38,760 nucleotides of DNA from Chitinophagaceae bacterium (lineage in GTDB: Bacteria; Bacteroidota; Bacteroidia; Chitinophagales; Chitinophagaceae). Each line of letters begins with the position of its first letter. Position 1 is the first letter of the stretch. A model generated the notes under the pieces. It did no database searches. It saw nothing but the letters and a program-made list of their open reading frames with translations, and was not told the origin of the DNA. Location: contig CANGQQ010000005.1 of the NCBI GenBank assembly GCA_947456025.1, positions 1 through 38,760 on the forward strand, written 5' to 3'. This document shows, piece after piece, positions 2,192 to 15,954 of this stretch. The position numbers and the translations under genes were made by a program.

Positions 2192-2537
2192 CAGGCTTTT
2201 TGAAGCCCCTCTTAGAATAACTAATCGCTGTTTTGTGTTTTAGATGCTGTTATCAACCGGCTATCTCTATCACTTTTTGCGCATGTCCTAAAAAGGCAAA
2301 AGTGTCATTTTTTACATTCAAAGTATTGTTGAAAATTTCACCTAAGAATCAAATTAGGTGCGCTCAATAGGAAAAAATGAATGATTGAATTTCAAAAAAG
2401 TTCATTTTCCGTTATGATGAGAAAAATGGATGGAATAGGTCTTTAAACGGAGCCTGATAACATCGTTTTATGTTTAGGGGTCTGTTTTTGAGAAGGAATA
2501 TTCATTTTTCTTGTTATCTTTTCAACAATGTCCCCAG
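2192..2537. other. Intergenic region between fabG and the SulP gene
   Basis: About 346 bases without a credible gene. Just after the fabG stop a weak hairpin (GGCTT/AAGCC, 2194-2207) could act as a terminator, but no T-run follows. A clean inverted repeat lies at 2339-2360 and an imperfect one at 2370-2410 (GGAAAAAATGAA against TTCATTTTCC). TTATCTTTTC at 2515-2524 only loosely resembles a -7 element. The rest is AT-rich and featureless to the eye. Confidence 0.5.
2339..2360. repeat. Perfect inverted repeat upstream of the SulP gene
   Basis: CACCTAA at 2339-2345 and TTAGGTG at 2354-2360 are exact reverse complements separated by 8 bases. There is no T-run, so it is not a classical terminator. 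Its place about 180 bases before the SulP start fits an operator or an untranslated-leader hairpin, but that is inference. Confidence 0.45.
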
Positions 2538-4103
2538 ATGAACAAAATTTTTAAGAACGCCGCGGCCGATATTCCTGCTTCGATCGTAGTATTTCTGGTT
2601 GCTTTGCCACTCTGCTTAGGTGTAGCTGTAGCATCGGATGCTATGCCACTTAGTGGACTGATTGCAGGAATTGCGGGAGGTATTGTAACCGGCCTTTTCA
2701 GCAAGTCAAATCTCAGTGTAAGTGGTCCTGCTGCCGGCTTGACTGCAATTGTGGCAACATCCTTACAACAACTTCCCTCTTATGAAATTTTCCTTCTAAG
2801 TGTAATACTGGCGGGTATCTTACAAATAGTGCTCGGTTACCTCAAAGCGGGCATTATTGGAGATTTTATACCCAATGCAGTTATCAAAGGAATGCTGGCT
2901 GCTATTGGTATCATTTTGATCTTAAAACAGATCCCCCATTTCCTGGGGTACGACAAAGATCCTGAAGGCGACGAATCCTTTCTTCAGCCAGACAAAAAAA
3001 ACACATTCACCGAAATCATTGATGCGTTTCAACATCTTTCCGGCGGAGCAATCATCATTGGCATGATCGCACTAGCAATCCTTTTTATTTATGAAACACA
3101 ATGGTTGAAAAAGCGAATGATTTCAAAAATTTTACCCGGTCCGTTAAGCGTAGTTGTACTGGGAATCTTTCTGAATGAATTTTTCAAAATATACGCTCCG
3201 TCCTTAGGGGTCAAAAATGACCAGTTGGTAACCATTCCGATTTTTCACTCATCAAACGAATTTATACACCACCTGCCATTCCCGGACTGGAAAGGTCTTC
3301 TGAATACTAAGATGTGGACCATTGCATTGACAATTGCCGTTGTTGCAAGTTTAGAATCTTTATTGAGTATCGAAGCAGTAGACAAACTGGATCCTGAAAA
3401 AAGACTGACACCTACGAATCATGAGTTAAAGGCTCAGGGTCTGGGCAATATAGTTTCGGGTTTATTCGGAGGATTACCTGTAACCAGTGTCATTGTTCGT
3501 AGCTCTGCGAACGTCCATGCAGGAGCAAAATCAAAAATGAGCACCGTCATTCATGGAATTCTTTTGTTGGTCAGTATGCTCTTTTTCCCTGAGGTATTAA
3601 ACCAGATTCCTTTATCTGCTTTAGCAGCAATTCTAATATATACCGGCTATAAGTTAGCCAAAGTTGCATTGTTCCGTGAAATGTATCATAAAGGCTGGGA
3701 TCAATTTTTACCCTTCGCCATAACTATTGTTGCAATCATCATGTCTGATTTGTTAAAAGGGATTGCTGTTGGTTTACTAACCGGGTTATTCTATGTAACA
3801 AGAAGCAACTTTAAATCGGCTGTCTTTATTTTAAAAGACGAGCACCGTTACCTGATTCGTTTTCGAAAAGAAGTTTCGTTCCTAAACAAATCATACGTAA
3901 AAACAAATATTGAAAAAATACCGGATCATGCAGCGGTACTGATTGATGCAACAAAATCAGACTTCATTGATAAAGACATTATTGAAGAAATCGATGCTTT
4001 TATTGTTAATGCCTCTTTGCGAGGAATCAGAGTCTACATCAAAAAATCACAGGGAAGAGGAAAAACATTTTTCAACGATATCACGAACAACGTCATTCAA
4101 TAA
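2538..4103 (+). CDS. SulP family anion transporter (SLC26-like) with C-terminal STAS domain
   Basis: A 521-residue inner-membrane protein of the SulP/SLC26 family, whose members carry sulfate, bicarbonate (cyanobacterial BicA) or other anions. The N-terminus has the family signature (DIPASIVVFLVALPLCLGVA, then SGPAAGL), followed by many hydrophobic segments up to about residue 425 and a soluble STAS domain at about 430-515. The start at 2538 (MNKIFKN) is preferred over an upstream in-frame TTG at 2511 because family proteins begin just before the DIPAS helix. The next gene, 25 bases downstream on the same strand, is a beta-carbonic anhydrase, so the two probably form one transcript. That pairing and the SbtA-like genes opposite make bicarbonate the likeliest substrate, though sulfate cannot be excluded from sequence. 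Confidence 0.9.
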   Translation: MNKIFKNAAADIPASIVVFLVALPLCLGVAVASDAMPLSGLIAGIAGGIVTGLFSKSNLSVSGPAAGLTAIVATSLQQLPSYEIFLLSVILAGILQIVLGYLKAGIIGDFIPNAVIKGMLAAIGIILILKQIPHFLGYDKDPEGDESFLQPDKKNTFTEIIDAFQHLSGGAIIIGMIALAILFIYETQWLKKRMISKILPGPLSVVVLGIFLNEFFKIYAPSLGVKNDQLVTIPIFHSSNEFIHHLPFPDWKGLLNTKMWTIALTIAVVASLESLLSIEAVDKLDPEKRLTPTNHELKAQGLGNIVSGLFGGLPVTSVIVRSSANVHAGAKSKMSTVIHGILLLVSMLFFPEVLNQIPLSALAAILIYTGYKLAKVALFREMYHKGWDQFLPFAITIVAIIMSDLLKGIAVGLLTGLFYVTRSNFKSAVFILKDEHRYLIRFRKEVSFLNKSYVKTNIEKIPDHAAVLIDATKSDFIDKDIIEEIDAFIVNASLRGIRVYIKKSQGRGKTFFNDITNNVIQ

Positions 4104-4128
4104 CATCATTTAAACGAATCATCATAAC

Positions 4129-4761
4129 ATGAAACCCTTCGAGAAATTATTGTTGGAAAACAAAGCATGGGCTCGTGAAAAAATTCAGAATGATCCTGAA
4201 TATTTTAATCGTCTTGCCAATTTACAAACTCCTGAATTTTTATGGATCGGCTGCAGTGACAGTCGTGTGCCGGCTAATGAAATCACCGGTACTGAACCGG
4301 GTGAGATTTTTGTTCATCGAAACATCGCCAATATGGTGGTGCATACAGATCTCAACTTGCTGAGTGTTTTAGACTATGCAGTACATCATTTGAAAGTTAA
4401 ACACGTCATCGTTTGCGGACACTACGGTTGTGGAGGCGTAAAAGCCGCCTTAACACATCACAATTTGGGAATAATCAATAAATGGCTGCGTAATATAAAA
4501 GATGTTTTCAGGTATCATGAAAGCGAACTGAATCAAATCGATGACGAAGCCCAAAAACTGAACAGGCTCGTAGAGCTGAACGTTGAAGAACAAGTCATGA
4601 ATCTGGCAAAAACTTCGATCATTCAAAAAGCATGGAAATACGAAAACCGACCTTACCTCCATGGCTGGGTTTATGGGTTGGCGAACGGGATCATCAAGCC
4701 GGTGTACGAAATGAAACCGGGATCACATCTGGATCCTATTTATGAGTATGACGACTTATGA
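4129..4761 (+). CDS. Beta-class carbonic anhydrase
   Basis: A 210-residue cytoplasmic zinc enzyme interconverting CO2 and bicarbonate. The zinc ligands and catalytic dyad of beta-class enzymes are visible: Cys42 and Asp44-Arg46 in [11 protein letters not shown], then His98 and Cys101 in CGHYGCGG. It has the usual length and the usual HRNIAN stretch (63-68). It follows the SulP transporter by 25 bases on the same strand and ends 18 bases before the convergent SbtA-like gene. Paired with an anion transporter, its probable job is to equilibrate imported bicarbonate with CO2 for carboxylating enzymes or pH control. No signal peptide is present. The class assignment is very secure. Confidence 0.95.
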
Positions 4762-4779
4762 TTGAGAATTCGATATCAA

Positions 4780-5742
4780 TCAAAATTGGGTGATCAACCA
4801 CCAGTACAAAGGAATACCGATTGTAATATTAAACGGAAACGTAACTCCCAACGCCATGGGTATGTACAACCCGGGATCGGCTTTAGGCGCAGCCAATCGC
4901 ATGGCAGCAGGAACAGCAATATAAGAAGCGCTGGCTGCAAGAATGGCCAATAAAAAACGGTTGCCGGTTTCCATTTCAAAGAAAGAAGTTATAAAAACAG
5001 TAAGGGTTCCATTTAAAGGCGGCAACAAAATCCCGAACAATGTTACAAACCATCCATAACTTCTAAAGGCTTTAAAACGTTTAGCTGCGACCATTCCCAT
5101 TTCCAAAAGAAAGACCGCAAGGAAACCCTTGAATATGTCGGATGTAAAAGGTTTAATTCCTTCTGCCTGTTTTGTGTCAGCAACAATCCCAATGATCAAA
5201 CTGCCCATAATCATCAAAACACTTCCATTCGTTAATGCATCATGTACAATATACCTTAATCGCTGTCGCTCCGTTTGTTGAATATCGAATTTACGAATCA
5301 TCATTACCCCAATAATAATAGCCGGCGCTTCCATTAAAGCCATTGCGGCCACCATATGTCCCCCGTAATGAATCTGCTCTGCTTCAAGAAATGCAGATGC
5401 CGCCACAAATGTTACAGCACTTACACTGCCATAAGCTGCTGCAACAGCTCCTGCATCATACACATTCAGCCTTTGTTTGAGTATAAAAAAAGAATAAAGC
5501 GGAACGAGTGCTGCCAGGCATAATGCTAAAAGCAATGTAATAAAAACCTCCTTTGTCAATCCGCTATGTGCTAATTCCTGCCCCCCCTTGAAACCAATAG
5601 AGAATAATAAGTATAAGGATATAAACTTTACCGAACCTGAAGGAATTTCCAGATCACTTTTTACGATTGCAGCAATAACACCCAGTAAAAAAAACAGCAA
5701 AGTGGGATTGGTAATATTGCTGATAAGAATATCTGTATTCAT
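4780..5742 (-). CDS. SbtA-like sodium-dependent bicarbonate permease (first of two paralogues)
   Basis: A 320-residue, strongly hydrophobic membrane protein of the family that includes cyanobacterial SbtA, a sodium/bicarbonate symporter. The diagnostic AYGSVSAVTF sequence is present near residue 105, with GGHMVAAMALMEAPAI near 128 and a second conserved membrane half ending in YIAVPAAMRLA. The N-terminus MNTDILISNITNPTLLFF matches that of the neighbouring paralogue, which fixes the start. It is convergent with the carbonic anhydrase gene, 18 bases apart, and 102 bases downstream of the second copy on the same strand. No gene for the PII-like regulator SbtB is nearby. Transport of bicarbonate is inferred from family and context; substrates of non-cyanobacterial homologues are little tested. 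Confidence 0.85.
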   Translation of the reverse strand: MNTDILISNITNPTLLFFLLGVIAAIVKSDLEIPSGSVKFISLYLLFSIGFKGGQELAHSGLTKEVFITLLLALCLAALVPLYSFFILKQRLNVYDAGAVAAAYGSVSAVTFVAASAFLEAEQIHYGGHMVAAMALMEAPAIIIGVMMIRKFDIQQTERQRLRYIVHDALTNGSVLMIMGSLIIGIVADTKQAEGIKPFTSDIFKGFLAVFLLEMGMVAAKRFKAFRSYGWFVTLFGILLPPLNGTLTVFITSFFEMETGNRFLLAILAASASYIAVPAAMRLAAPKADPGLYIPMALGVTFPFNITIGIPLYWWLITQF

Positions 5743-5844
5743 TCACAAAATTTATTATTCAAATACGACACAAGAGATTATAGAAGTTCTTAAGCATCAT
5801 GTTAGATTCATAAGAAAAAGTCACTTGCCCGAATAAATGATAAC

Positions 5845-6807
5845 TTAAAGGTACTGAATCATCAACCGAAAGAGCGGAATACCGACAATTATGACAAAAG
5901 GGAACGTAATCACTAAAGCCATAGACACATAAATACCCGGATCGGCCTTGGGAACCACAATTCGCATGGCAGCCGGTACAGCAATATGTGATGCAGAAGC
6001 GGTTAATAGTACCAATAAAAAGCGATTACCATAACTCAAATCAGTAAGACCTGTAACGAATACCGCCACAACACCATTGATCAATGGCATAATCAGTGCA
6101 AAGAGCGTAACAAACCAGCCATTCTTAACAAACGATCGAAATCCCTGTGCAGCCATGATTCCCATCTCTAACATAAACATGGCAAGAAACCCCTTAAACA
6201 AATCGTTCGTAAATGGTTTAATACTTTCGGCCTGTTGCGGGTTTGTAAGTAAACCCACTGCTAAACTTCCAAGCAAGACAAAAACGGAAGGATTCGTTAT
6301 CGACTCATGTGTTATGTAAAGAAAACCTTTGTTCCGGCTCCCTTCTTGATCAAATTTTCGAATAAGCATGACGCCAACAATAATTGCAGGAATTTCCATA
6401 AGTGCCATACAGGCAACCATATGTCCGCCAAAAGCTATGTTTTCACTAACAAGGTACGATGCCCCTACTATAAATGTAACGGCACTTACGCTGCCGTAAC
6501 AGGCAGCCACAGCACCAGCATCACTTACCGATAACTTTCTTTTTAAGATAAAAAATGAATAAAAAGCAACTAAAACTGACAAGCCAATTGAAACAAGAAC
6601 CGTACTGAATATTTCTGATGTTATCCCGCTATGACGGAGTTCAACGCCACCCTTGAAACCAATTGCAAATAAAAGATACAGCGATAAAAATTTTGAAATG
6701 GCTTCCGGAATCTTTACATCACTTTTCACCACAACAGCTAAAAGACCCAACGCAAAAAACAACAATGTGGGATTGGTAAGATTACTTACCAGAATTTCCG
6801 TATTCAT
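5845..6807 (-). CDS. SbtA-like sodium-dependent bicarbonate permease (second of two paralogues)
   Basis: A 320-residue membrane protein, the same length as its downstream neighbour and similar along its whole length (shared GFKGG, DAGAVAA, YGSVSAVTF, GGHMVA, IPAII and AVPAAMR). The start at 6807 (MNTEILVSN) is preferred to an in-frame ATG at 6843: it aligns with the paralogue's start, and a perfect -7 promoter element at 6825-6832 lies between the two, so a transcript from it would not include the upstream ATG. The second half carries LSYGNRFLL and HIAVPAAMR. The pair looks like a tandem duplication that has diverged, perhaps giving two affinities or regulation states. No adjacent SbtB-like gene was seen. 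Confidence 0.85.
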   Translation of the reverse strand: MNTEILVSNLTNPTLLFFALGLLAVVVKSDVKIPEAISKFLSLYLLFAIGFKGGVELRHSGITSEIFSTVLVSIGLSVLVAFYSFFILKRKLSVSDAGAVAACYGSVSAVTFIVGASYLVSENIAFGGHMVACMALMEIPAIIVGVMLIRKFDQEGSRNKGFLYITHESITNPSVFVLLGSLAVGLLTNPQQAESIKPFTNDLFKGFLAMFMLEMGIMAAQGFRSFVKNGWFVTLFALIMPLINGVVAVFVTGLTDLSYGNRFLLVLLTASASHIAVPAAMRIVVPKADPGIYVSMALVITFPFVIIVGIPLFRLMIQYL

Positions 6808-6824
6808 AAAGAAAGTTATGGCTG

Positions 6825-6832
6825 CAAAAGTA
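6825..6832 (-). promoter_or_regulatory. Promoter -7 element for the upstream SbtA-like gene
   Basis: Read on the minus strand this is TACTTTTG followed by C, a perfect match to the Bacteroidota TAnnTTTG element, 17 bases before the chosen ATG. A TTTC, one change from the -33 TTTG, lies 22 bases further upstream (6855-6858). Confidence 0.6.
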
Positions 6833-6956
6833 AACGAATTCATTCAATCATGCTGAAACATTCATGATTTGAACGATTACCGTTAATGAACCATTCTTTA
6901 CAGCACCAATAACGAACGTTCAATCGATGACGTTGTCTGTTGCTATAACAAAAAGA

Positions 6957-7742
6957 TTAAGATACTTTAGAGGACTTTGACTTAAAGGACTCAATCGCTT
7001 TTCTGGTAAATGAACTCAGTACCAATCTGCCACTGATTTTTGCACGCTCTGCCAGCAATTCGTCCCAATGTTCTGTTCCTTTCCATAACATTTTTTTGAT
7101 TTCTGCCATTGCTTCGGGAGAAGAATGTGCCAATGAATCGGCCAGTTTATTTAAAAATTCATCCATGCTTTCAACAGAGGGATGAAGTTCGGCATACAAA
7201 CCTTTTCGACGGGCCCAGTCGGAGTTACGCCAACTTGCGGCATCGATAGAGAGTTGCGCAAAAGCAGATGTTCCGATTTTTCGTTCAACCGCAGGACCAA
7301 TTACAAACGGACCAATACCGATGGATAGTTCACTCAATTTGACATCAGCCCCTTCCAGCGCAATGGCGTAATCGGCAGCTGCAGCTAAGCCCACTCCACC
7401 ACCAATGCATTTACTATGAACACGTGCGATGATGAACTTGGGACATTTGCGCATGGCATTGATCACTTTTGCAAAACCATTGAAGAACTTGTGTCCATCC
7501 TGTTCCGTTTGTATGGCGACCAGTTCGTCAAAACTGGCACCTGCACAAAAAGCTTTTTCACCCGAACTGCGCAGGATGATGACTTTGGTCTCGGCATGAT
7601 TGCCTGCAAAATGAATTTCTTTCGCTAATTCCTCCAGCAATTTGCCGGGGAGTGAATTGCCTTGCGCGTGATGAAATTCGATAGTGGTAATTCCCTGATG
7701 GGTTTCGCTCGTTACAAATCCGGCGCTATGATCTTTTGACAT
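6957..7742 (-). CDS. Enoyl-CoA hydratase/isomerase (crotonase) family protein
   Basis: A 261-residue crotonase-fold protein, probably cytoplasmic, acting on an acyl-CoA in beta-oxidation or amino-acid breakdown. Oxyanion-hole regions are visible as FCAGASFDEL (residues 65-74) and IGGGVGLAAAAD (113-124). In standard enoyl-CoA hydratases the second region reads GGGxEL and supplies a catalytic Glu (Glu144 in the rat enzyme); here that position is Gly118, while a Glu at 138 (KLSEL) corresponds to the second catalytic Glu. The exact reaction is therefore uncertain: hydratase with one Glu, isomerase or another crotonase activity. The gene stands alone between the SbtA-like genes and a small secreted protein gene; a near-consensus -7 element (TACGTTTTG) lies at 7765-7773. 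Confidence 0.82.
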   Translation of the reverse strand: MSKDHSAGFVTSETHQGITTIEFHHAQGNSLPGKLLEELAKEIHFAGNHAETKVIILRSSGEKAFCAGASFDELVAIQTEQDGHKFFNGFAKVINAMRKCPKFIIARVHSKCIGGGVGLAAAADYAIALEGADVKLSELSIGIGPFVIGPAVERKIGTSAFAQLSIDAASWRNSDWARRKGLYAELHPSVESMDEFLNKLADSLAHSSPEAMAEIKKMLWKGTEHWDELLAERAKISGRLVLSSFTRKAIESFKSKSSKVS

Positions 7743-7848
7743 GCAATCGTGTTTAAGTATTTTACAAAACGTATTTAAAAATAAAAATACCGTGTCGTTT
7801 ATCCAAATTTAAACTTACAGACAAACGGTTTTACTAGGCAGCACATGT

Positions 7849-8283
7849 TTATTCTAGTTGCGCCGATTTCATCGCCTTCAAAAGATCGGTCAGGACCTGC
7901 TGCCGCTCACTTGAAACAGCATAGGTTTTTTCTTTGAACCGAACCTTTGAGTTCGTCCTGCTTCGATCGTTGACAATACGGTCAAAAAAAGAATCGTTGT
8001 AAGTGTTCAACGCTCCCTCTAGAAGTTTTGATTTTGTTTCAAACCTTGCTGCATCCAACTTGTTGGAAATTGAATGCTTGCTTAACAGGTCATACATTGA
8101 CTTTGTTGACTTCAACAATGTCATTCCCTGATGATAAAAACGGGCCTCTTTAGTAAGAGTGAAAAAGGCCATCTGTTCCAGCGCTTGTTCGTGTTGATTT
8201 CGAGCATTTTTTTCAGTAACCTGAGCCTTTAACGTTACAGCACTCAATAAAAGACAAACAACAGTCAATATTCTTTTCATCAT
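7849..8283 (-). CDS. Small secreted protein of unknown function
   Basis: A 144-residue protein that I do not recognise. It begins with a typical signal peptide (MMKRILTVVCLLLSAVTLKAQ, cleavage probably near residue 20) and is then helical and charged, with a strongly basic patch around RFETKSK. There are no cysteines after the signal peptide and no obvious catalytic motif. The two consecutive ATGs at 8283 and 8280 are both possible starts. It is probably exported to the periplasm. It lies 106 bases upstream of the crotonase gene on the same strand and just downstream of the tsf remnant. Signal peptide and codon pattern make it a likely real gene, but no role can be assigned. Confidence 0.65.
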   Translation of the reverse strand: MMKRILTVVCLLLSAVTLKAQVTEKNARNQHEQALEQMAFFTLTKEARFYHQGMTLLKSTKSMYDLLSKHSISNKLDAARFETKSKLLEGALNTYNDSFFDRIVNDRSRTNSKVRFKEKTYAVSSERQQVLTDLLKAMKSAQLE

Positions 8284-8406
8284 TGGATTGTGATTTAGTC
8301 CGGAGCTTTATTGAAACAACTCCCATTTTGAAATAAAATTAGTCCTTTTTCAAATAAAAATTCCGGATCTGGTTTGATGCGGGATCTGTTCTATTGTAAT
8401 GTAACC
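8284..8406. other. Short gene-free stretch between the secreted-protein gene and the tsf remnant
   Basis: No gene or strong structure seen. Two 7-base direct repeats (TTAGTCC and GGATCTG) occur, each twice, but are too short to interpret. Confidence 0.4.
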
Positions 8407-8623
8407 TTAACCTAATGACACACGCTTGAATACAACCACCTTAACAACTCCGGCACTTTCAAATTAAGTTTCAACACTTTTTTAAACCATCACTCACGAA
8501 AGCTTGTGCCAAAAGAGTTTGTTCTTTAAAGAACGCATTGAGGTTACCTTCTGCAATGTTTGAAACCATTTCTTCGGACTCTTCTGCCATTTTGGGATCA
8601 TTTTTAACAATACCCGCTCCCAT
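8407..8623 (-). pseudogene. Decayed fragment of the 3' end of tsf (elongation factor Ts)
   Basis: This stretch aligns with the last 200 or so bases of the intact tsf gene (15118 to about 15320), including its stop codon. By hand it is roughly 80-85% identical, with only two mismatches across the 48 bases from CACGAAAGCTTGTG to GCATTGAG. Read on the minus strand it gives NDPKMA, EEMVSNIAEGNLNAFFKEQT and LLAQAFV, close to the EF-Ts C-terminus. One extra base in an A/T run (near 8481) then shifts the frame: translation stops at 8471, and the old frame continues with another in-frame stop to FKRVSLG and the original stop at 8407. The N-terminal four fifths of the gene are absent. A 50-codon frame (8471-8623) remains open but has no sign of being expressed. 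Origin by partial duplication or acquisition from a relative cannot be separated here. Confidence 0.88.
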
Positions 8624-8709
8624 TTAAACAATACTGCCAATACACTGTTGTATGGGCTGGTTCAATCGAAAATGGGGAATATTTAAGAAATCTGCCCCGG
8701 ATTTCCATT

Positions 8710-8717
8710 TACCTTTG
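8710..8717 (+). promoter_or_regulatory. Promoter -7 element ahead of the RND efflux region
   Basis: TACCTTTG followed by C is a perfect TAnnTTTG element. It ends only 9 bases before the ATG at 8727, so the transcript would have a very short leader. It lies downstream of an in-frame ATG at 8652 and argues against that longer start. No clear -33 TTTG is seen. Confidence 0.6.
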
Positions 8718-8726
8718 CGTCTCATT

Positions 8727-9110
8727 ATGAAACGGATTATTGCCTTTAGTCTTTTATGTCTGTTCATCAACTCCTCCATGCTGCTGCCGCAGGTGGGTGG
8801 GGCGTGTCTGCATGACAACGGAGGTAAGCAGCCTGATCATGTGAATTCATTGTTGGGATGGATAAATGAAATCGTTTTAGAACATACCGATACAACACCA
8901 ATAGGCGAGGATTCCGATAATTCATTTTTCAACAGTAACATTGACGAAACCTTTTGTCATCGCTCACAACACAAACACGACCTGCAGCCACAGGATATTT
9001 TGTTGCCTGATGGATGCAAGTTTGCAGAATATGCTGAAGGAAAACTTCCCTGTCTCATCATGGATGTTACTGCTCCCCCTCCCGACATAACTTTCGCCTC
9101 CTTCATTTAA
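8727..9110 (+). CDS. Small secreted Cys/His-containing protein preceding the RND operon
   Basis: A 127-residue protein beginning with a basic, hydrophobic signal-like segment (MKRIIAFSLLCLFINSSML). I do not recognise its family. The mature part holds three or four cysteines (27, 77, 97, 109), a CHRSQHKHD cluster, and a Pro-rich tail (TAPPPDITFASFI). It may be periplasmic or surface-exposed, and the Cys/His content would suit metal binding, though that is only a guess. The start at 8727 is chosen because a perfect -7 promoter element ends 9 bases upstream and the hydrophobic export segment starts there. It is 94 bases upstream of the efflux adaptor gene with no further promoter visible, so co-transcription with the pump is plausible. 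Confidence 0.6.
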   Translation: MKRIIAFSLLCLFINSSMLLPQVGGACLHDNGGKQPDHVNSLLGWINEIVLEHTDTTPIGEDSDNSFFNSNIDETFCHRSQHKHDLQPQDILLPDGCKFAEYAEGKLPCLIMDVTAPPPDITFASFI

Positions 9111-9204: not shown

Positions 9205-10347
9205 ATGAACTATCGTCATAGTGCATTCTATGCTTTGTGTGCTGCAATCTGTAGCGCCGCTGTCATTACAATAACATCCTGCAACAATAAAGTAGAAAAA
9301 ATCAATACCACTTCCGAAGTATTCCAGGTCCTTAAACCGGTAATCGTAGATACGGTTTACCAAGAAGAATATGTGGCCGAAATACATGCCTTACAAAACG
9401 TCGAAATCCGCACTCGTATTAAAGGGATTATTGAACAGATTCATGTAGATGAAGGCAACCCTGTAGCAGCAGGCCAGTTGCTATTTACCCTTAGCAGTCG
9501 TATCTATAAAGAAGATTTGTTAAAGGCCAATGCACAACTTAAAAGCGCTGCTGCAGAATTAAAATCTGTTGAAGTGGAAGTGAAAAACATAAAACTGCTG
9601 GTGGAAAAAAACATTGTTTCGAAAACGGAACTGGAAATGGTGCTTGCAAAAAAGGAAGCTATACAGGCAAAAATTGAAGAAGCCAATTCGGCGATTTCAC
9701 TTGCAAAACTGAATCTGTCATTTGCCCAAATAAGGGCTCCATTCAGCGGCACCATCAATCGCATACCCAATAAACGGGGTAGTCTTGTGGAAGAAGGAGC
9801 TTTGCTCACCACTATATCCAATAACCGTGAAGTGTTTGCATACTTCAATTTGTCCGAAAGCGACTATCTTAATTTTGTTACATCTGATAAAAAAACCGAA
9901 TTCAAAAGTGCCCATCTTTTATTGGCCAATAACACGCTTTACGAATACAAAGGAAGCATTGAAATTTCTGAAAGTGAATTTGATGCCTCTTCCGGCAATA
10001 TTGCTTTCAGAGCACGCTTTCCTAATCCGGAAGCATTACTAAAACATGGTGGAAATGGTAAGATCATCATTACCAAACCACTACATAATGCCATGCTGGT
10101 TCCTCTTCGATCCACATTTGAAATACAGGACAAAGTTTTTGTTTTTACTGTTGACACCAAGAACAAAGTGCGACAAAAAGCGATTGTTCCAAAATTACGT
10201 ATTCCGCATTTCTACGTAGTGGAAGCCGGTCTTACAAAAGATGAAATCATTCTTTTTGAAGGCGTAGAAAATGTAAAAGAAGGAGATCAGATTAAACCTG
10301 AAATTATTTCTCACGAGCAAACTCTTATCGGAAGCAGCAAACAGTAA
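9205..10347 (+). CDS. RND efflux periplasmic adaptor (membrane fusion protein, AcrA-like)
   Basis: A 380-residue adaptor that would link the inner-membrane pump to the outer-membrane channel of a tripartite efflux system. The N-terminal segment ends in a lipobox-like TITSC (Cys26), so it is probably a lipoprotein. Then follow a lipoyl half-domain (ALQNVEIRTRIKG near 63-75, with HVDEGNPVAAGQLL), an alpha-helical hairpin rich in Lys/Glu/Ala at about 97-170, the second lipoyl half (IRAPFSGTINR near 176) and beta-barrel/membrane-proximal domains to the end. It is 12 bases upstream of the pump gene, in the standard adaptor-pump-channel order. Length is normal for the AcrA/MexA group. Substrates cannot be told from sequence. 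Confidence 0.92.
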   Translation: MNYRHSAFYALCAAICSAAVITITSCNNKVEKINTTSEVFQVLKPVIVDTVYQEEYVAEIHALQNVEIRTRIKGIIEQIHVDEGNPVAAGQLLFTLSSRIYKEDLLKANAQLKSAAAELKSVEVEVKNIKLLVEKNIVSKTELEMVLAKKEAIQAKIEEANSAISLAKLNLSFAQIRAPFSGTINRIPNKRGSLVEEGALLTTISNNREVFAYFNLSESDYLNFVTSDKKTEFKSAHLLLANNTLYEYKGSIEISESEFDASSGNIAFRARFPNPEALLKHGGNGKIIITKPLHNAMLVPLRSTFEIQDKVFVFTVDTKNKVRQKAIVPKLRIPHFYVVEAGLTKDEIILFEGVENVKEGDQIKPEIISHEQTLIGSSKQ

Positions 10348-10359
10348 AGCGATCGACAC

Positions 10360-13300
10360 ATGACATCAAAATTTATTCATCGCCCGGTATTATCCATTGT
10401 AATATCGGTGATCATTACTTTATTGGGGTTACTTTCATTAACCCAACTTCCCGTTACACAGTTTCCGGATATTGCCCCGCCGGAAGTAACGGTTACCAGC
10501 AAATACACCGGCGCCAATGCTGAAACCGTTGTAAAAGCAGTTGTTACACCTCTTGAACGTGCTATTAACGGTGTGCCGGGTATGGCTTATATGTCTTCCG
10601 TTTCCGGAAACGACGGCACCAGTGTTATTCAAATTGTTTTTAAAGCCGGAACAGATCCTGATGTAGCAGCCGTTAACGTACAAAACCGCGTATCATCAAC
10701 ATTGGATGAGCTACCGGAAGAAGCCATTAAAGCAGGGGTAATCGTTGAAAAGGTACAGAACAGCATGCTCATGTATCTGAATATCCTCAGCTCAGACTCA
10801 GCATTGGATGAAAAGTTTCTCTTCAATTTTACTGACATCAATATCCTGCCTGAGTTAAAACGTATAGAAGGGGTAGGCTTTGCCGATATTATGGGCTCAC
10901 GGGAATATGCTATGCGCATTTGGCTGAAGCCAGATAAAATGGTGATGTATAATTTATCAGCTCCGGAGGTCATCAGCATGCTCAAGGCTCAAAACGTGGA
11001 AGCGGCTCCCGGTAAGATTGGTGAAAGTTCCGGTAAACTGGCACAGTCATTACAATATGTTTTAAAATACACCGGCAAGTACAACACAAAAGAAGCTTAT
11101 GAAAACATTGTGCTGCGCAACGAAGAAAACGGAGAATTGCTTCGTTTAAAAGATATCGCTGATATTGAATTTGATTCACAGGAATACGATGTGCTTTCAA
11201 AAGAAAACGGCAAACCGTCCGCTGCGATCATGATCAAGCAGCGTCCCGGAACGAACGCCAAAGAGGTGATTCAAAAAATTAAAGACCGGATGAAGGAAAT
11301 CAAAACCGTTTCTTTTGCACCCGGCATGGATTACACTGTGAGTTACGATGTATCATCGTTCCTCGATGCTTCAATCAATGAAGTAATCAAAACATTGATT
11401 GAAGCCTTTATACTGGTAGCATTGGTTGTATTCATTTTCTTACAGGATGGCCGATCCACCATCATTCCCATCCTGGCCGTTCCGGTTTCACTCATTGGCA
11501 CCTTTTTCTTTATGCAGTGGATGGGATTTTCACTCAACCTTATCACTTTGTTTGCCCTGGTACTGGCCATTGGAATTGTAGTTGATAATGCCATTGTAGT
11601 GGTAGAAGCTGTGCATGCAAAAATGGAACAGTCGGGTATGGGTGTACGTCGTGCAACAGAACAGGCCATGCACGAAATCAGCGGCGCCATCATTGCCATC
11701 ACACTCGTTATGTCGGCGGTGTTTGTACCGGTCGCATTTATGGAAGGGCCCACAGGTATTTTCTATCGCCAGTTTTCATTAACGATGGCGGTTTCGATTG
11801 TTCTTTCCGGTGTTACGGCCCTTACACTCACCCCGGCTTTGTGTATGCTGTTTCTGAAAAACACACATGCTGCACACAATCATTCCACCAAAAAGAAAAA
11901 CAGATTAACCCGATTTTTTGATGGATTTAATAAATGGTACAACGGTTTATCTAATCACTACCGGAATCTGATAGGTTTCATTGCCAATAGAAGAGTCATC
12001 ACATTTGGCGCCCTTTTACTCTTCAGTTTAAGTGCCGGCATCATTGGAAAAATCGTCCCTTCCGGATTTATTCCTAATGAAGATCAGGGAGCTATCTATG
12101 CGAACATTACAACACCATCGGGCGCCACTCTGGAACGTACTGATAAAGTAGTGGACGAAGTGCAACAAATTGCTCAGAACATGCAGGCGGTAAGTTCTGT
12201 TTCCAGCCTTTCCGGTTATAGTGTGTTATCAGAAGGTGTAGGTGCTGTTTATGGCATGAACCTGATCAATCTGAAAAACTGGAAAGATCGTTCACAATCT
12301 GATGCAGCCATCATCCGTGAACTGGAAGAAAAAACAAAACACATTAAAGATGCCAACATTGAATTCTTTACTCCACCACCGGTACCCGGCTATGGCAACT
12401 CGAGTGGTTTTGAATTGAGATTACTTGATAAAACCGGAAGTGGTGATCTGCAAAAACTGCAGCAAACGGCAAGGGCCTTTGTAGAAGCATTGAACAAGCG
12501 GCCCGAGATCATGAATTCCTTTACCACCTTCAATGCCAGTTTTCCGCAATTCCTGCTCCATATTGACGGTGATAAAGCAGCACAAAAGGGAATTACTGCA
12601 GATAATGCCATGAGTACGCTGCAAACTTTGATTGGCAGTGAGTATGCTACCAACTTCATCCGTTTTGGTCAGTTGTACCGTGTGATGGTGCAGGCACTGC
12701 CACAATACCGTGCGCAGCCCGATGATTTGCTGAAACTTTACATCAAAAACGACAAAGGCGAAATGGTTCCGTTCTCATCCTTCCTTCGGGTTGAGAAAGT
12801 CTATGGGCCGGAACAGGTAACCCGTTACAACATGTACGCTTCTGCCATGATTAACGGTCAGCCGGCCACAGGCTACAGCAGCGGTCAGGCCATCGCTGCC
12901 ATTAAAGAAGTTGCGGCATCCCAACTTCCTAAAGGTTATAGTTACGACTGGGCAGGATCCAGCAGAGACCAGGCAAATACAGGCAACCAGGCCATTTACA
13001 TTTTCATCATTTGTTTGCTGTTTGTTTACCTGTTACTGGCAGCACAGTATGAAAGTTTTCTCTTGCCATTCCCGGTCATTCTTTCATTACCAATTGGTGT
13101 TTTTGGCGCTTTGTTTCTTTTGATGCTGATGGGACTTGAAAATAACATTTACGCACAAATTGCAATGATCATGCTTATTGGTATCCTTGGAAAAAACGCC
13201 ATTCTTATTATTGAATTTGCAGCAATGAAACACCGTGAAGGAATGAAACCATTCCCTGCAGCTGTTGAAGCAGCTACGCTTCGTTTACGTCCCATTCTGA

Positions 13301-13527
13301 TGACCTCTTTTGCGTTTATCGCTGGTCTCATTCCGTTGATGCTGGCTTCAGGCGCCGGAGAAATCGGAAACAAAACCATTGGGTCTGCAGCGGCAGGCGG
13401 GATGCTCTTTGGTACTGTCTTCGGTGTTCTTGTCATCCCGGGTCTTTATGTGGTATTTGCTTCTGTTGCCGAAAAATTTAATACGAAAGGGGAAAAAGAA
13501 GAAAAGCCTTACACAGAAACCATTTAA
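10360..13527 (+). CDS. RND multidrug efflux pump, HAE1 family (AcrB/MexB-like)
   Basis: A 1055-residue inner-membrane proton antiporter, the engine of the tripartite pump. The N-terminus (FIHRPVLSIVISVIITLLG) and length are those of hydrophobe/amphiphile RND pumps: twelve membrane segments with two large periplasmic loops, about residues 30-340 and 560-870. In membrane segment 4 the relay reads GIVVDNAIVVVEA, with Asp409 kept but Asn410 where E. coli AcrB has a second Asp (Asp408). Lys945 in GKNAILIIEF matches AcrB Lys940. The gene starts 12 bases after the adaptor and is followed by the channel gene 95 bases on. No regulator gene is adjacent. Family call is firm; drug spectrum unknown. Confidence 0.95.
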   Translation: MTSKFIHRPVLSIVISVIITLLGLLSLTQLPVTQFPDIAPPEVTVTSKYTGANAETVVKAVVTPLERAINGVPGMAYMSSVSGNDGTSVIQIVFKAGTDPDVAAVNVQNRVSSTLDELPEEAIKAGVIVEKVQNSMLMYLNILSSDSALDEKFLFNFTDINILPELKRIEGVGFADIMGSREYAMRIWLKPDKMVMYNLSAPEVISMLKAQNVEAAPGKIGESSGKLAQSLQYVLKYTGKYNTKEAYENIVLRNEENGELLRLKDIADIEFDSQEYDVLSKENGKPSAAIMIKQRPGTNAKEVIQKIKDRMKEIKTVSFAPGMDYTVSYDVSSFLDASINEVIKTLIEAFILVALVVFIFLQDGRSTIIPILAVPVSLIGTFFFMQWMGFSLNLITLFALVLAIGIVVDNAIVVVEAVHAKMEQSGMGVRRATEQAMHEISGAIIAITLVMSAVFVPVAFMEGPTGIFYRQFSLTMAVSIVLSGVTALTLTPALCMLFLKNTHAAHNHSTKKKNRLTRFFDGFNKWYNGLSNHYRNLIGFIANRRVITFGALLLFSLSAGIIGKIVPSGFIPNEDQGAIYANITTPSGATLERTDKVVDEVQQIAQNMQAVSSVSSLSGYSVLSEGVGAVYGMNLINLKNWKDRSQSDAAIIRELEEKTKHIKDANIEFFTPPPVPGYGNSSGFELRLLDKTGSGDLQKLQQTARAFVEALNKRPEIMNSFTTFNASFPQFLLHIDGDKAAQKGITADNAMSTLQTLIGSEYATNFIRFGQLYRVMVQALPQYRAQPDDLLKLYIKNDKGEMVPFSSFLRVEKVYGPEQVTRYNMYASAMINGQPATGYSSGQAIAAIKEVAASQLPKGYSYDWAGSSRDQANTGNQAIYIFIICLLFVYLLLAAQYESFLLPFPVILSLPIGVFGALFLLMLMGLENNIYAQIAMIMLIGILGKNAILIIEFAAMKHREGMKPFPAAVEAATLRLRPILMTSFAFIAGLIPLMLASGAGEIGNKTIGSAAAGGMLFGTVFGVLVIPGLYVVFASVAEKFNTKGEKEEKPYTETI

Positions 13528-13622: not shown

Positions 13623-15047
13623 ATGAAAACAAAATACATATTGCTGTTGCTGCTTGTTTCCGGTGCCCTGTTGTACAGCTGCACACCTTTGAAAACGGGA
13701 CAAGTCATTAAAAAACAAGAGTTGCCTGTACAGTATGCTCAATCAAAAGATACCGCTAGCATTCCCGTTGCCGGTTGGAAAGATTTTTTTAAAGACACGC
13801 ATCTGATTCAGCTCATAGACTCTGCTTTAAAGCATAATTGGGATCTTCTGATTGCGTTTCAGCGGATGCAGGTTGCACAATCAGATGTGCTGCTGAGTAA
13901 CAGTGTACTGAAACCGAGAGTTGATGCCACTGTTACAAATGCCCTGCGACGATATGGACTTTACACTATGGATGGGGCAGGTAACAGCAGCACCTTTATG
14001 CTGCCGGGAAAAATAGTGCCAACCAATCTGCCGGATTATTTCATCGGCTTTCAGTCAAGCTGGGAAGCAGACATCTGGGGCAAATTAAGGAATCGTAAAC
14101 GAGCGGCCATATCACGCTATCTTGCTACAACTGAAGGACGCAACCTCGTTATCACAAACTTGGTTAGTGAAATTGCACTGGCTTACTTTGAATTGCAGGC
14201 GGCTGATCAAACGATACGTATTATTGAAGAAACCATTGCCATACAGCAAAGGGCCTTTGATATTGTAAAAGTAAAAAAAGAAGCAGCGGTATTAAATCAA
14301 CTCGCAGTAAAACAATTTGAAGCCCAGCTCATTAACCTGAAAGCATTACATACAGAAGTATTACAACAGATTGTTGAAACTGAAAACAGAATCAATTTTC
14401 TTTTGGGACGCTATCCGCAAAAAGTCAACCGAGATACCTTGTATTACAAAAATGATTTGCCTTTAACATTGCATACAGGCATCCCTTCCGCATTACTTGA
14501 AAACCGACCGGATATACGACAGGCCGGATTACAATTGATTGCGGCCAAAGCAGATCTCGCCGCAGCGAAAGCGGCATTTTATCCATCGCTCAACATCACT
14601 GCCGGCTTCGGGTACCAGGCATTTCGACCCAACCTTCTTTTCACTCCTGAATCAATCGCATTCACACTGGTCGGAAATATGGTGGCCCCCTTAGTTAATA
14701 GAGCTGCTATAAAGGCTGTGTTTTATACAGCCAACGCACAGCAACGGGAAGCCATGTACCAATTCAACAAAACAGTTGTAAATGCTTTTCATGAAGTGCA
14801 GACTGAAATAAGCCGAACAAAAAATCTGCAACAGATGTATGATTTAAAAATCAACGAAACCAACAGCCTTTCAGAATCGGTTGGAATTGCAGAAGAATTA
14901 TTCAGAACCGGCAGAGCCACCTACCTTGAAGTACTGTATGCGCAACAACAAACACTCAAGGCAAAACTGGAATTGATGGAAACAAAGAAGCGTCAATTGT
15001 TATGTGGTGTACATCTATACAAAGCACTGGGAGGCGGATGGAGATGA
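13623..15047 (+). CDS. Outer membrane efflux channel lipoprotein (TolC/OprM family)
   Basis: A 474-residue outer-membrane factor completing the tripartite pump. The signal peptide ends in a lipobox (LLYSC, Cys20), so it is probably lipid-anchored, as in OprM/NodT-type channels. Two repeats of the OEP fold are visible: a first half with FQSSWEADIWGKLRN near residue 142, and a second half opening with the family signature LLENRPDIRQA and continuing AKADLAAAKAAFYPSLNI. The end (GRATYLEVLYAQQQTLKAKLEL) is also canonical. It lies 95 bases after the pump gene, a gap with no recognisable promoter, and a strong terminator follows 18 bases after the stop, closing the operon. Confidence 0.93.
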   Translation: MKTKYILLLLLVSGALLYSCTPLKTGQVIKKQELPVQYAQSKDTASIPVAGWKDFFKDTHLIQLIDSALKHNWDLLIAFQRMQVAQSDVLLSNSVLKPRVDATVTNALRRYGLYTMDGAGNSSTFMLPGKIVPTNLPDYFIGFQSSWEADIWGKLRNRKRAAISRYLATTEGRNLVITNLVSEIALAYFELQAADQTIRIIEETIAIQQRAFDIVKVKKEAAVLNQLAVKQFEAQLINLKALHTEVLQQIVETENRINFLLGRYPQKVNRDTLYYKNDLPLTLHTGIPSALLENRPDIRQAGLQLIAAKADLAAAKAAFYPSLNITAGFGYQAFRPNLLFTPESIAFTLVGNMVAPLVNRAAIKAVFYTANAQQREAMYQFNKTVVNAFHEVQTEISRTKNLQQMYDLKINETNSLSESVGIAEELFRTGRATYLEVLYAQQQTLKAKLELMETKKRQLLCGVHLYKALGGGWR

Positions 15048-15064
15048 GGCAACCTGATGAAAAT

Positions 15065-15099
15065 AAAAATCCCCTGCAGTAAAACTCAGGGGATTTTTT
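15065..15099. terminator. Bidirectional rho-independent terminator
   Basis: AAAAATCCCCTG (15065-15076) pairs perfectly over 12 bases with CAGGGGATTTTT (15087-15098) around a 10-base loop, with T-runs in both directions. It sits between the convergent efflux channel gene and tsf and can end both transcripts. Confidence 0.92.
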
Positions 15100-15117
15100 A
15101 TTTTTCGATTCAGCGGA

Positions 15118-15954
15118 TTAACCTAATGCAACACGCTTAAATACAGTCACTTTCACATCACCTGCACTTTTCAAATAATCACCAACACTTTTTGAACCAT
15201 CTTTCACGAAAGCTTGTGCCAAAAGGGTTTGCTCTTTAAAGAACGCATTGAGTTTGCCTTCTGCAATTTTTGAAACCATTTCTTCAGGCTTTCCTGCCAT
15301 TTTAGGATCTTGTTTCATTAATTCCAGAATGATATCTTTTTCACGGGCAACAACATCGGCCGGAACACTATCCGCATCAACAGCAACAGGATTCATGGCT
15401 GCAATTTGCATTGCAAGGTCTTTTCCTACTTCTGGTGCTTCTTTGTCCAATCCTACCAAAACGCCCATACGGTTTGCACCGTGAATGTAGGAAGAAACAT
15501 ATGGAGCTTCCACTCGCTCAAACTTACTGATACCGATTTTTTCACCAATGGAAGCCAGCTTATCATTGATAAGATCTGCAATTTTAACACCGCCTATCAG
15601 CACTTCATTCAATTCTTCGGCAGATTTCACATTGTTGGCAACTGCCGCATCTGCAATTGACTTTGCAAATGCAACAAAGTCGGAGTTCTTACTCACAAAA
15701 TCAGTTTCACAACTGATGCATACAACAAAACCTGTTTTGTTATCAGCTGTTGTTTGAGCAATCACAACTCCTTCTTTTGCTTCACGGTCGCTACGCTTTG
15801 CAGCCACTTTTTGACCTTGTTTACGAAGCCAGTCAATAGCAGCTTCAAAATCGCCGTTTGTTTCAGTTAATGCTTTACGGCAATCCATCATCCCTGCGCC
15901 TGTAGCCTGACGCAACTTATTAATATCCTGTGCACTTATTGTTACAGTAGACAT
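15118..15954 (-). CDS. tsf: Translation elongation factor Ts
   Basis: A 278-residue guanine-nucleotide exchange factor that releases GDP from EF-Tu in the cytoplasm. The N-terminal UBA-like domain carries the signature KLRQATGAGMMDCRKAL, followed by the core with CETDFV near residue 79, the stretch that enters the EF-Tu nucleotide site. The C-terminal module ends LNAFFKEQTLLAQAFV and FKRVALG. It is last in the order rplM-rpsI-rpsB-tsf, 121 bases after rpsB, and a strong terminator follows 18 bases beyond its stop. Length suits the longer bacterial form. The last fifth of this gene has a decayed copy at 8407-8623. Confidence 0.97.
   Translation of the reverse strand: MSTVTISAQDINKLRQATGAGMMDCRKALTETNGDFEAAIDWLRKQGQKVAAKRSDREAKEGVVIAQTTADNKTGFVVCISCETDFVSKNSDFVAFAKSIADAAVANNVKSAEELNEVLIGGVKIADLINDKLASIGEKIGISKFERVEAPYVSSYIHGANRMGVLVGLDKEAPEVGKDLAMQIAAMNPVAVDADSVPADVVAREKDIILELMKQDPKMAGKPEEMVSKIAEGKLNAFFKEQTLLAQAFVKDGSKSVGDYLKSAGDVKVTVFKRVALG

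Follow-up and report, generated by a model that had tools for sequence, protein, structure and literature searches.

Pseudogenes that arise by partial duplication are found in bacterial genomes as truncated, frameshifted and drifting paralogues, and the 3' end of a gene can be the integration site of an island that restores the gene. Incoming DNA may also be captured through homology at a single end. In homology-facilitated illegitimate recombination, as outlined in PMC3240628, one end of the incoming DNA is anchored by homology and the other is joined without it. Displaced 3' ends are proposed for the effector-immunity arrays of the Vibrio cholerae T6SS, and for the orphaned 3' regions of Rhs loci as cited within the same source; in these systems a new block arriving behind a conserved 5' part shifts the old 3' part downstream (PMC5361080). 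Here we describe a broken copy of the 3' end of tsf, the gene for elongation factor Ts (EF-Ts), which lies 6.7 kb from the intact gene and in the same orientation, and we compare it with these systems.

The window, by which we mean the whole stretch of DNA analyzed (38,760 nucleotides), is one entire contig (C5) of a 208-contig assembly of 2.37 Mb that is 97% complete. The genus of the source genome is Lacibacter. The resident tsf is intact and encodes 278 aa on the minus strand (15118..15954). A blastn search of 8300-8750 against the window returned one strong off-diagonal match, which starts at the tsf stop codon: 8407-8605 aligns with 15118-15315 at 166 of 199 positions (83%), with one gap and an E value of 9e-56. 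This value falls within the range of roughly 80-85% that had been estimated by hand in an earlier, sequence-only reading of the locus. When the alignment was set against shuffled sequence, the local score of the remnant with tsf was 234, and no more than 38 was reached in 500 shuffles of the stretch. At the protein level, EF-Ts residues 212-259 match 8468-8611 at 71% with one TGA inside, and the final 24 or so codons of the remnant are readable in another frame that itself holds one stop. The remnant therefore covers 8407..8611 on the minus strand (to 8605 by blastn, to 8611 by protein match) and corresponds to EF-Ts from about residue 212 to the stop. A whole-genome search of the 97%-complete assembly placed the tsf tail at these two positions only, with no third copy. 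Thus the sequence-only reading was right that a partial and disrupted copy of the tsf 3' end, stop codon included, lies 6.7 kb from the gene. Its boundary at 8623 has to be moved, as clear homology stops at 8605-8611, and a 50-aa open frame has its ATG at 8623.

Because of the frameshift and stops, and because the changes on its own side are mostly nonsynonymous, we regard the remnant as a pseudogene of tsf; it is a real, old and drifting gene fragment. It combines significant homology to a functional gene, a truncated and disrupted frame, and drift without coding constraint on its own branch, as judged with 13 of the 32 differences unplaced. In an alignment with 12 congeners, 11 sites carry a state that is common to the remnant and the resident tsf and is held by at most one of the 12 relatives, and a single site is of the opposite kind. 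These rare shared states indicate that the remnant is the sister of the resident tsf, and that the two copies parted after the sampled species did. The in-frame differences between them number 32, with 18 on the remnant branch, one on the tsf branch and 13 that are unplaceable. Those on the remnant branch comprise 16 nonsynonymous and two synonymous changes.

The codon positions of these differences hint at an earlier history. Counted over 66 codons, they fall 7/7/18 on first, second and third positions. In a simulation with an identical start followed by free drift, at least 18 third-position differences appeared in 0.6-16% of the runs that matched the other positions, depending on rate. A constrained divergence of 0.2-0.3 (simulation units) before decay fits about four times better than none (0.28-0.30 versus 0.07), a factor that rests on 32 differences in 66 codons; between the closest species pairs, the fraction of third positions that differ over the same stretch is 0.12-0.24. 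Since the simulation assumes uniform rates, we take it as a hint only that the copies diverged under coding constraint before decay set in. Over the whole remnant pS is 0.29 and pN is 0.13, and over the 50-aa open frame they are 0.22 and 0.10. The lower pN can stem from synonymous changes of the resident gene itself together with constraint that preceded the decay.

It had been proposed that the part of the remnant matching 15189-15236 is almost unchanged, with two mismatches in 48 bases, and that gene conversion or selection might be the cause. We count five mismatches in that interval; the best 48-base run, which does have two, begins at 15204 or 15205. Under random placement of mismatches such a run has a p value of 0.12 and is not significant. 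An 80-base window, one of the four sizes tried, gave p 0.025, uncorrected. Gene conversion with the resident tsf as donor could explain why columns 76-150 of the 200-column alignment contain 7 of the 32 differing columns, but remnant-specific changes are present in this middle part too. As the 48-base clustering is not significant, neither conversion nor selection is needed, and the 16:2 excess of nonsynonymous changes on the remnant side is as expected under drift. We consider it very improbable that conversion keeps the middle of the remnant alike.

Between the two tails lies an RND efflux operon that runs towards tsf. Four genes were assigned here, all on the plus strand: an ORF without family match (8727..9110), a periplasmic adaptor or membrane fusion protein (9205..10347), an AcrB-type RND permease (10360..13527) and a TolC/NodT-like outer-membrane efflux protein (13623..15047) that is convergent with tsf. 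The longest form of the first ORF starts at 8652. We prefer the start at 8727 because a TACCTTTG box stands before it, at 8710; we take this to be the Bacteroidetes promoter box and the promoter of the operon, and its pattern is not above chance in the window. The permease is 77-81% identical to genes at eight loci on contigs labelled Methylococcales or their genera, Ignavibacteria and Flavobacteriales, a likeness in sequence that suggests transfer between phyla. On the far side of the remnant is a 144-aa ORF on the minus strand (7849..8283), which has no match among 116 further genomes of the family, one congener included, nor in Pfam or NCBIfam; by eye, its start is signal-peptide-like. Beyond it stands an enoyl-CoA hydratase gene (6957..7742, minus strand), the next gene to keep its place in several relatives. 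Farther out, 2511-6843 holds a SulP-like permease (read from the ORF), a carbonic anhydrase and two adjacent Sbt_1 bicarbonate-transporter genes. The latter are paralogues at the DNA level (66% over 670 bases), and a Sbt gene is also found near tsf in two relatives (G007 and G011).

We compared what follows tsf in related genomes. A tsf match was found in 36 relatives, and tsf surroundings were taken from 19 genomes, including 12 congeners, and from contig G002:C22. The sample includes 13 congeners, and G008 was set aside because no tsf was found in it, which leaves 12 with a located tsf. Contig G002:C22, of 4.3 kb and inside a congener assembly, carries pieces of tsf and rpsB at 52-63% identity; it is probably a contaminant and was left out of the Lacibacter tsf count. 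In 5 of the 12 congeners (G001, G003, G006, G011 and G012) the genes after tsf are a DinB-like gene, paaZ and the hydratase gene, with one extra ORF among these in G012; the PaaZ and DinB-like family calls were made on the G006 proteins. In G007, paaZ and then the hydratase gene come directly after tsf. Different genes stand ahead of the hydratase gene in G013, and different genes follow tsf in G010, G002 and G005. The RND operon is behind tsf in the other two (G009, which is L. cauensis, and G004), a patchy distribution on the core tree. In both it sits between tsf and the DinB-like gene, and the same genes continue beyond it. The joint between tsf and the TolC-like gene is alike in the three RND-bearing genomes, at 70, 76 and 73 bases from stop to stop. 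Overall, the site behind tsf carries differing genes across Lacibacter genomes (at four of the loci compared), and it may be an insertion hot spot.

In the present genome, the operon is followed by the remnant, the 144-aa ORF and then the hydratase gene. Among the three genomes with the operon behind tsf, only this one has another tsf tail past the operon, on the side of the hydratase gene. In the tsf surroundings fetched from relatives, the remnant matched nothing but the intact tsf and no second tail was seen. A search of the genus matched the remnant in 10 of 13 congeners, once each, at the intact tsf, and none has a second tail; G010 and G013 gave no remnant match (their intact tsf was matched in the comparison of tsf surroundings), and G008 is the genome in which no tsf was found. 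In a search of the family, mostly scored on five or fewer candidates per genome, the tsf tail was matched in 116 of 147 genomes and at two places in the source genome only. The same remnant, which the earlier reading had suggested might be sought in related genomes, is thus absent from those searched. A sister genome with an unrearranged joint was not found among the 13 congeners. Elsewhere in the source genome the best PaaZ match is 26% identical and none exceeds 27%; the gap at 7743-8730 holds no significant DinB-like or PaaZ trace. In several relatives, genes from the two sides of the remnant are found close to one another in the vicinity of tsf. It is therefore unlikely that the contig was mis-joined and, as far as synteny can show, the remnant is not an artefact.

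With about as much belief as doubt, we read the remnant as the original 3' end of tsf, displaced by a recombined RND operon together with a fresh tsf tail from a close Lacibacter relative. A block carrying the operon and a fresh tsf 3' end would have entered from such a relative, one end of the incoming DNA pairing with tsf through homology and the other joining without homology inside the old tail, at about 8606-8623. The resident gene would have kept its full frame by adopting the incoming tail. The old tail and old terminator would have been left beyond the operon, 6.7 kb away, to drift ever since, and the DinB-like gene and paaZ, which stand beyond in several relatives, would have been lost. 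We infer the donor, the direction of the event and the one-sided use of homology, and a close relative outside the sample has to be assumed as the donor. The tail lies on the hydratase side of the operon, which is the place of the ancestral tsf end if the operon entered from the tsf side. The arrangement found, a block flanked by homology on one side with a truncated second copy of the anchor, is also what a tandem duplication would give.

In such a duplication, a segment from inside the tsf tail to beyond a native operon would have been copied in tandem, and one deletion would then have removed the second operon, the DinB-like gene and paaZ while sparing the second tail. No outside donor is required in this case, and the operon may be old at the site. 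Indeed, two other species at similar divergence have an RND operon behind tsf. When the present genome is compared with L. cauensis, the divergence at fourfold sites amounts to 0.63 in the RND gene and 0.62 in tsf, with both values near saturation. As the two values are equal, the operon may already have been in place at the species split, and its arrival need not be part of the event, a possibility that weighs against displacement of the original tail by an incoming block. A duplication is also compatible with the sister relation of the tails, and the single deletion would account for the lost DinB-like gene and paaZ as well. Trees fit both readings. The core tree places the source genome beside ten congeners with a weak branch support of 62%, and the RND tree groups it with G009 and G004 with a support of 79. 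However, a duplication needs two events, and no significant second TolC, RND, adaptor, DinB-like or PaaZ trace is left in 7743-8730. The first ORF of the operon has a weak match there, at the start of the 144-aa ORF (E 3e-4), but it is on the strand opposite to that of a tandem copy and the noncoding parts lend it no support.

That match had raised the candidate of an inverted repeat upstream of ORFs 8727-9110 and 7849-8283. With the coding starts included, 0-2 of 500 shuffles are as good as the two upstream regions (tblastn E 3e-4). The noncoding parts do no better than shuffles (68-501 of 1000) or other pieces of the window (45 of 596). We attribute the likeness to similarity of signal-peptide starts and have dropped it as a repeat.

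The 3' flanks of the two tails also bear on how the copies arose. An intact terminator hairpin stands between the convergent tsf and TolC-like genes (15050..15117, minus strand; -24.6 kcal/mol, z -5.1). The flank of the remnant does not stand out from shuffled sequence in its folding (z -0.8). The 70 bases past the remnant stop were compared with the tsf flank of each congener against 500 shuffles. They resemble the flanks of G006 (no shuffle as good), G001 (1), G012 and G002 (3 each), and G004 and G007 (8 each). With the six remaining congeners 36 to 201 shuffles do as well, and with the resident flank 140 of 1000, which is not significant. A local alignment of longer flanks with simpler shuffles gave a 13-base match to the resident flank (10 of 300 as good), with which a duplication is compatible; in the same alignment 3, 11 and 14 of 300 shuffles were as good for G004, G012 and G001, respectively. 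The resident flank resembles several relatives' flanks as well (0 of 500 shuffles for three), and between species the scores seem to depend on what follows tsf. On this weak and mixed likeness, 8345..8406 (minus strand), behind the remnant stop, is probably a decayed tsf terminator. Unlike flanks would be expected if the tails derive from two chromosomes, one with the operon and one without, although the evidence for this is thin. The unlike flanks and the excess of third-position differences are unexpected of an initially identical copy, and neither is strong. Displacement of the original tail needs fewer events, and we lean towards it on the hints from codon positions and flanks. Tandem duplication is possible, though we doubt it.

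Other routes to a second tail fare less well. If the tsf transcript had been retrocopied from its 3' end, the copy might be cut on its 5' side, as the remnant is, with homology that fades around the terminator. However, no reverse-transcriptase domain (PF00078) was found in the 97%-complete genome by a search that was positive in 3 of 14 control genomes, and recombination explains the same orientation and the closeness to tsf more simply; we find a retrocopy scarcely credible. We also considered a mobile cassette carrying a tsf tail, and dropped it after a survey of 70 RND loci, some of which end at contig edges: tsf is present, as the intact gene only, in just two Lacibacter loci, those with the operon behind it. 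One could envision a broader role for the tsf end, which is the outer edge of the conserved rplM-rpsI-rpsB-tsf block. It might recurrently anchor one-sided homologous capture of accessory operons in Lacibacter, the remnant being a displaced tail caught before its deletion. We consider this generalization unlikely, if worth stating.

The remnant is situated in the divergent intergenic region between ORFs 7849-8283 and 8727-9110, and it could have been exapted there as a spacer, promoter region, leader, small RNA or 50-aa peptide. In 7743-8800, a scan for the sigma-70-type consensus found six promoter-like sites where 2.1 were expected (sd 1.4), some of them at the edges of the remnant; this consensus is not known as the main promoter consensus in this phylum, and the presumed box of the operon, at 8710, lies outside the remnant. 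The 50-aa open frame persists with pN below pS, but it evolves like the rest of the remnant. Similarly, the mismatches are fewer in the middle by the uncorrected 80-base window, but their clustering over 48 bases is not significant. No Rfam match was obtained at gathering scores, and the flank, as noted above, folds no better than shuffled sequence. Exaptation is therefore very improbable in our estimate. As far as its sequence can tell, the remnant is most likely a non-functional scar; nothing tested points clearly to a function, and a minor role is possible.

Judged by title or abstract, none of the papers listed on tsf pseudogenes or duplications and on Lacibacter pseudogenes treats the present case. 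Among the works listed, those on partial duplications and gene remnants are general and the one on islands is unrelated. We regard the remnant as the fossil of a recombination beside an essential translation gene. It is relevant to how a few Lacibacter genomes, unlike their sisters, came to have an efflux operon behind tsf. Its interest is local, and little new is learned from it beyond Lacibacter.

Like an island inserted in a gene's 3' end, the locus has an intact gene on one side and a displaced gene end on the other. Unlike such an island, it has no integrase among the four genes assigned between the copies, no tRNA gene was found, and no short att-like repeat is seen apart from the 200-base repeat (83%) as such. 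Homology-facilitated illegitimate recombination (PMC3240628) would result in a second, truncated anchor gene, as is seen here. The present case is inferred from one genome, and its donor and any microhomology at the junction are hypothetical. In comparison with the V. cholerae T6SS arrays and Rhs loci, as these are presented in PMC5361080, the anchor is here provided by a housekeeping gene, an efflux operon makes up the block, and the displaced tail is dead. Whatever the mechanism, the remnant belongs, without any difference, to the class of partial-duplication pseudogenes. It is thus not a new kind of element; among such remnants it is ordinary, but a tidy fossil.
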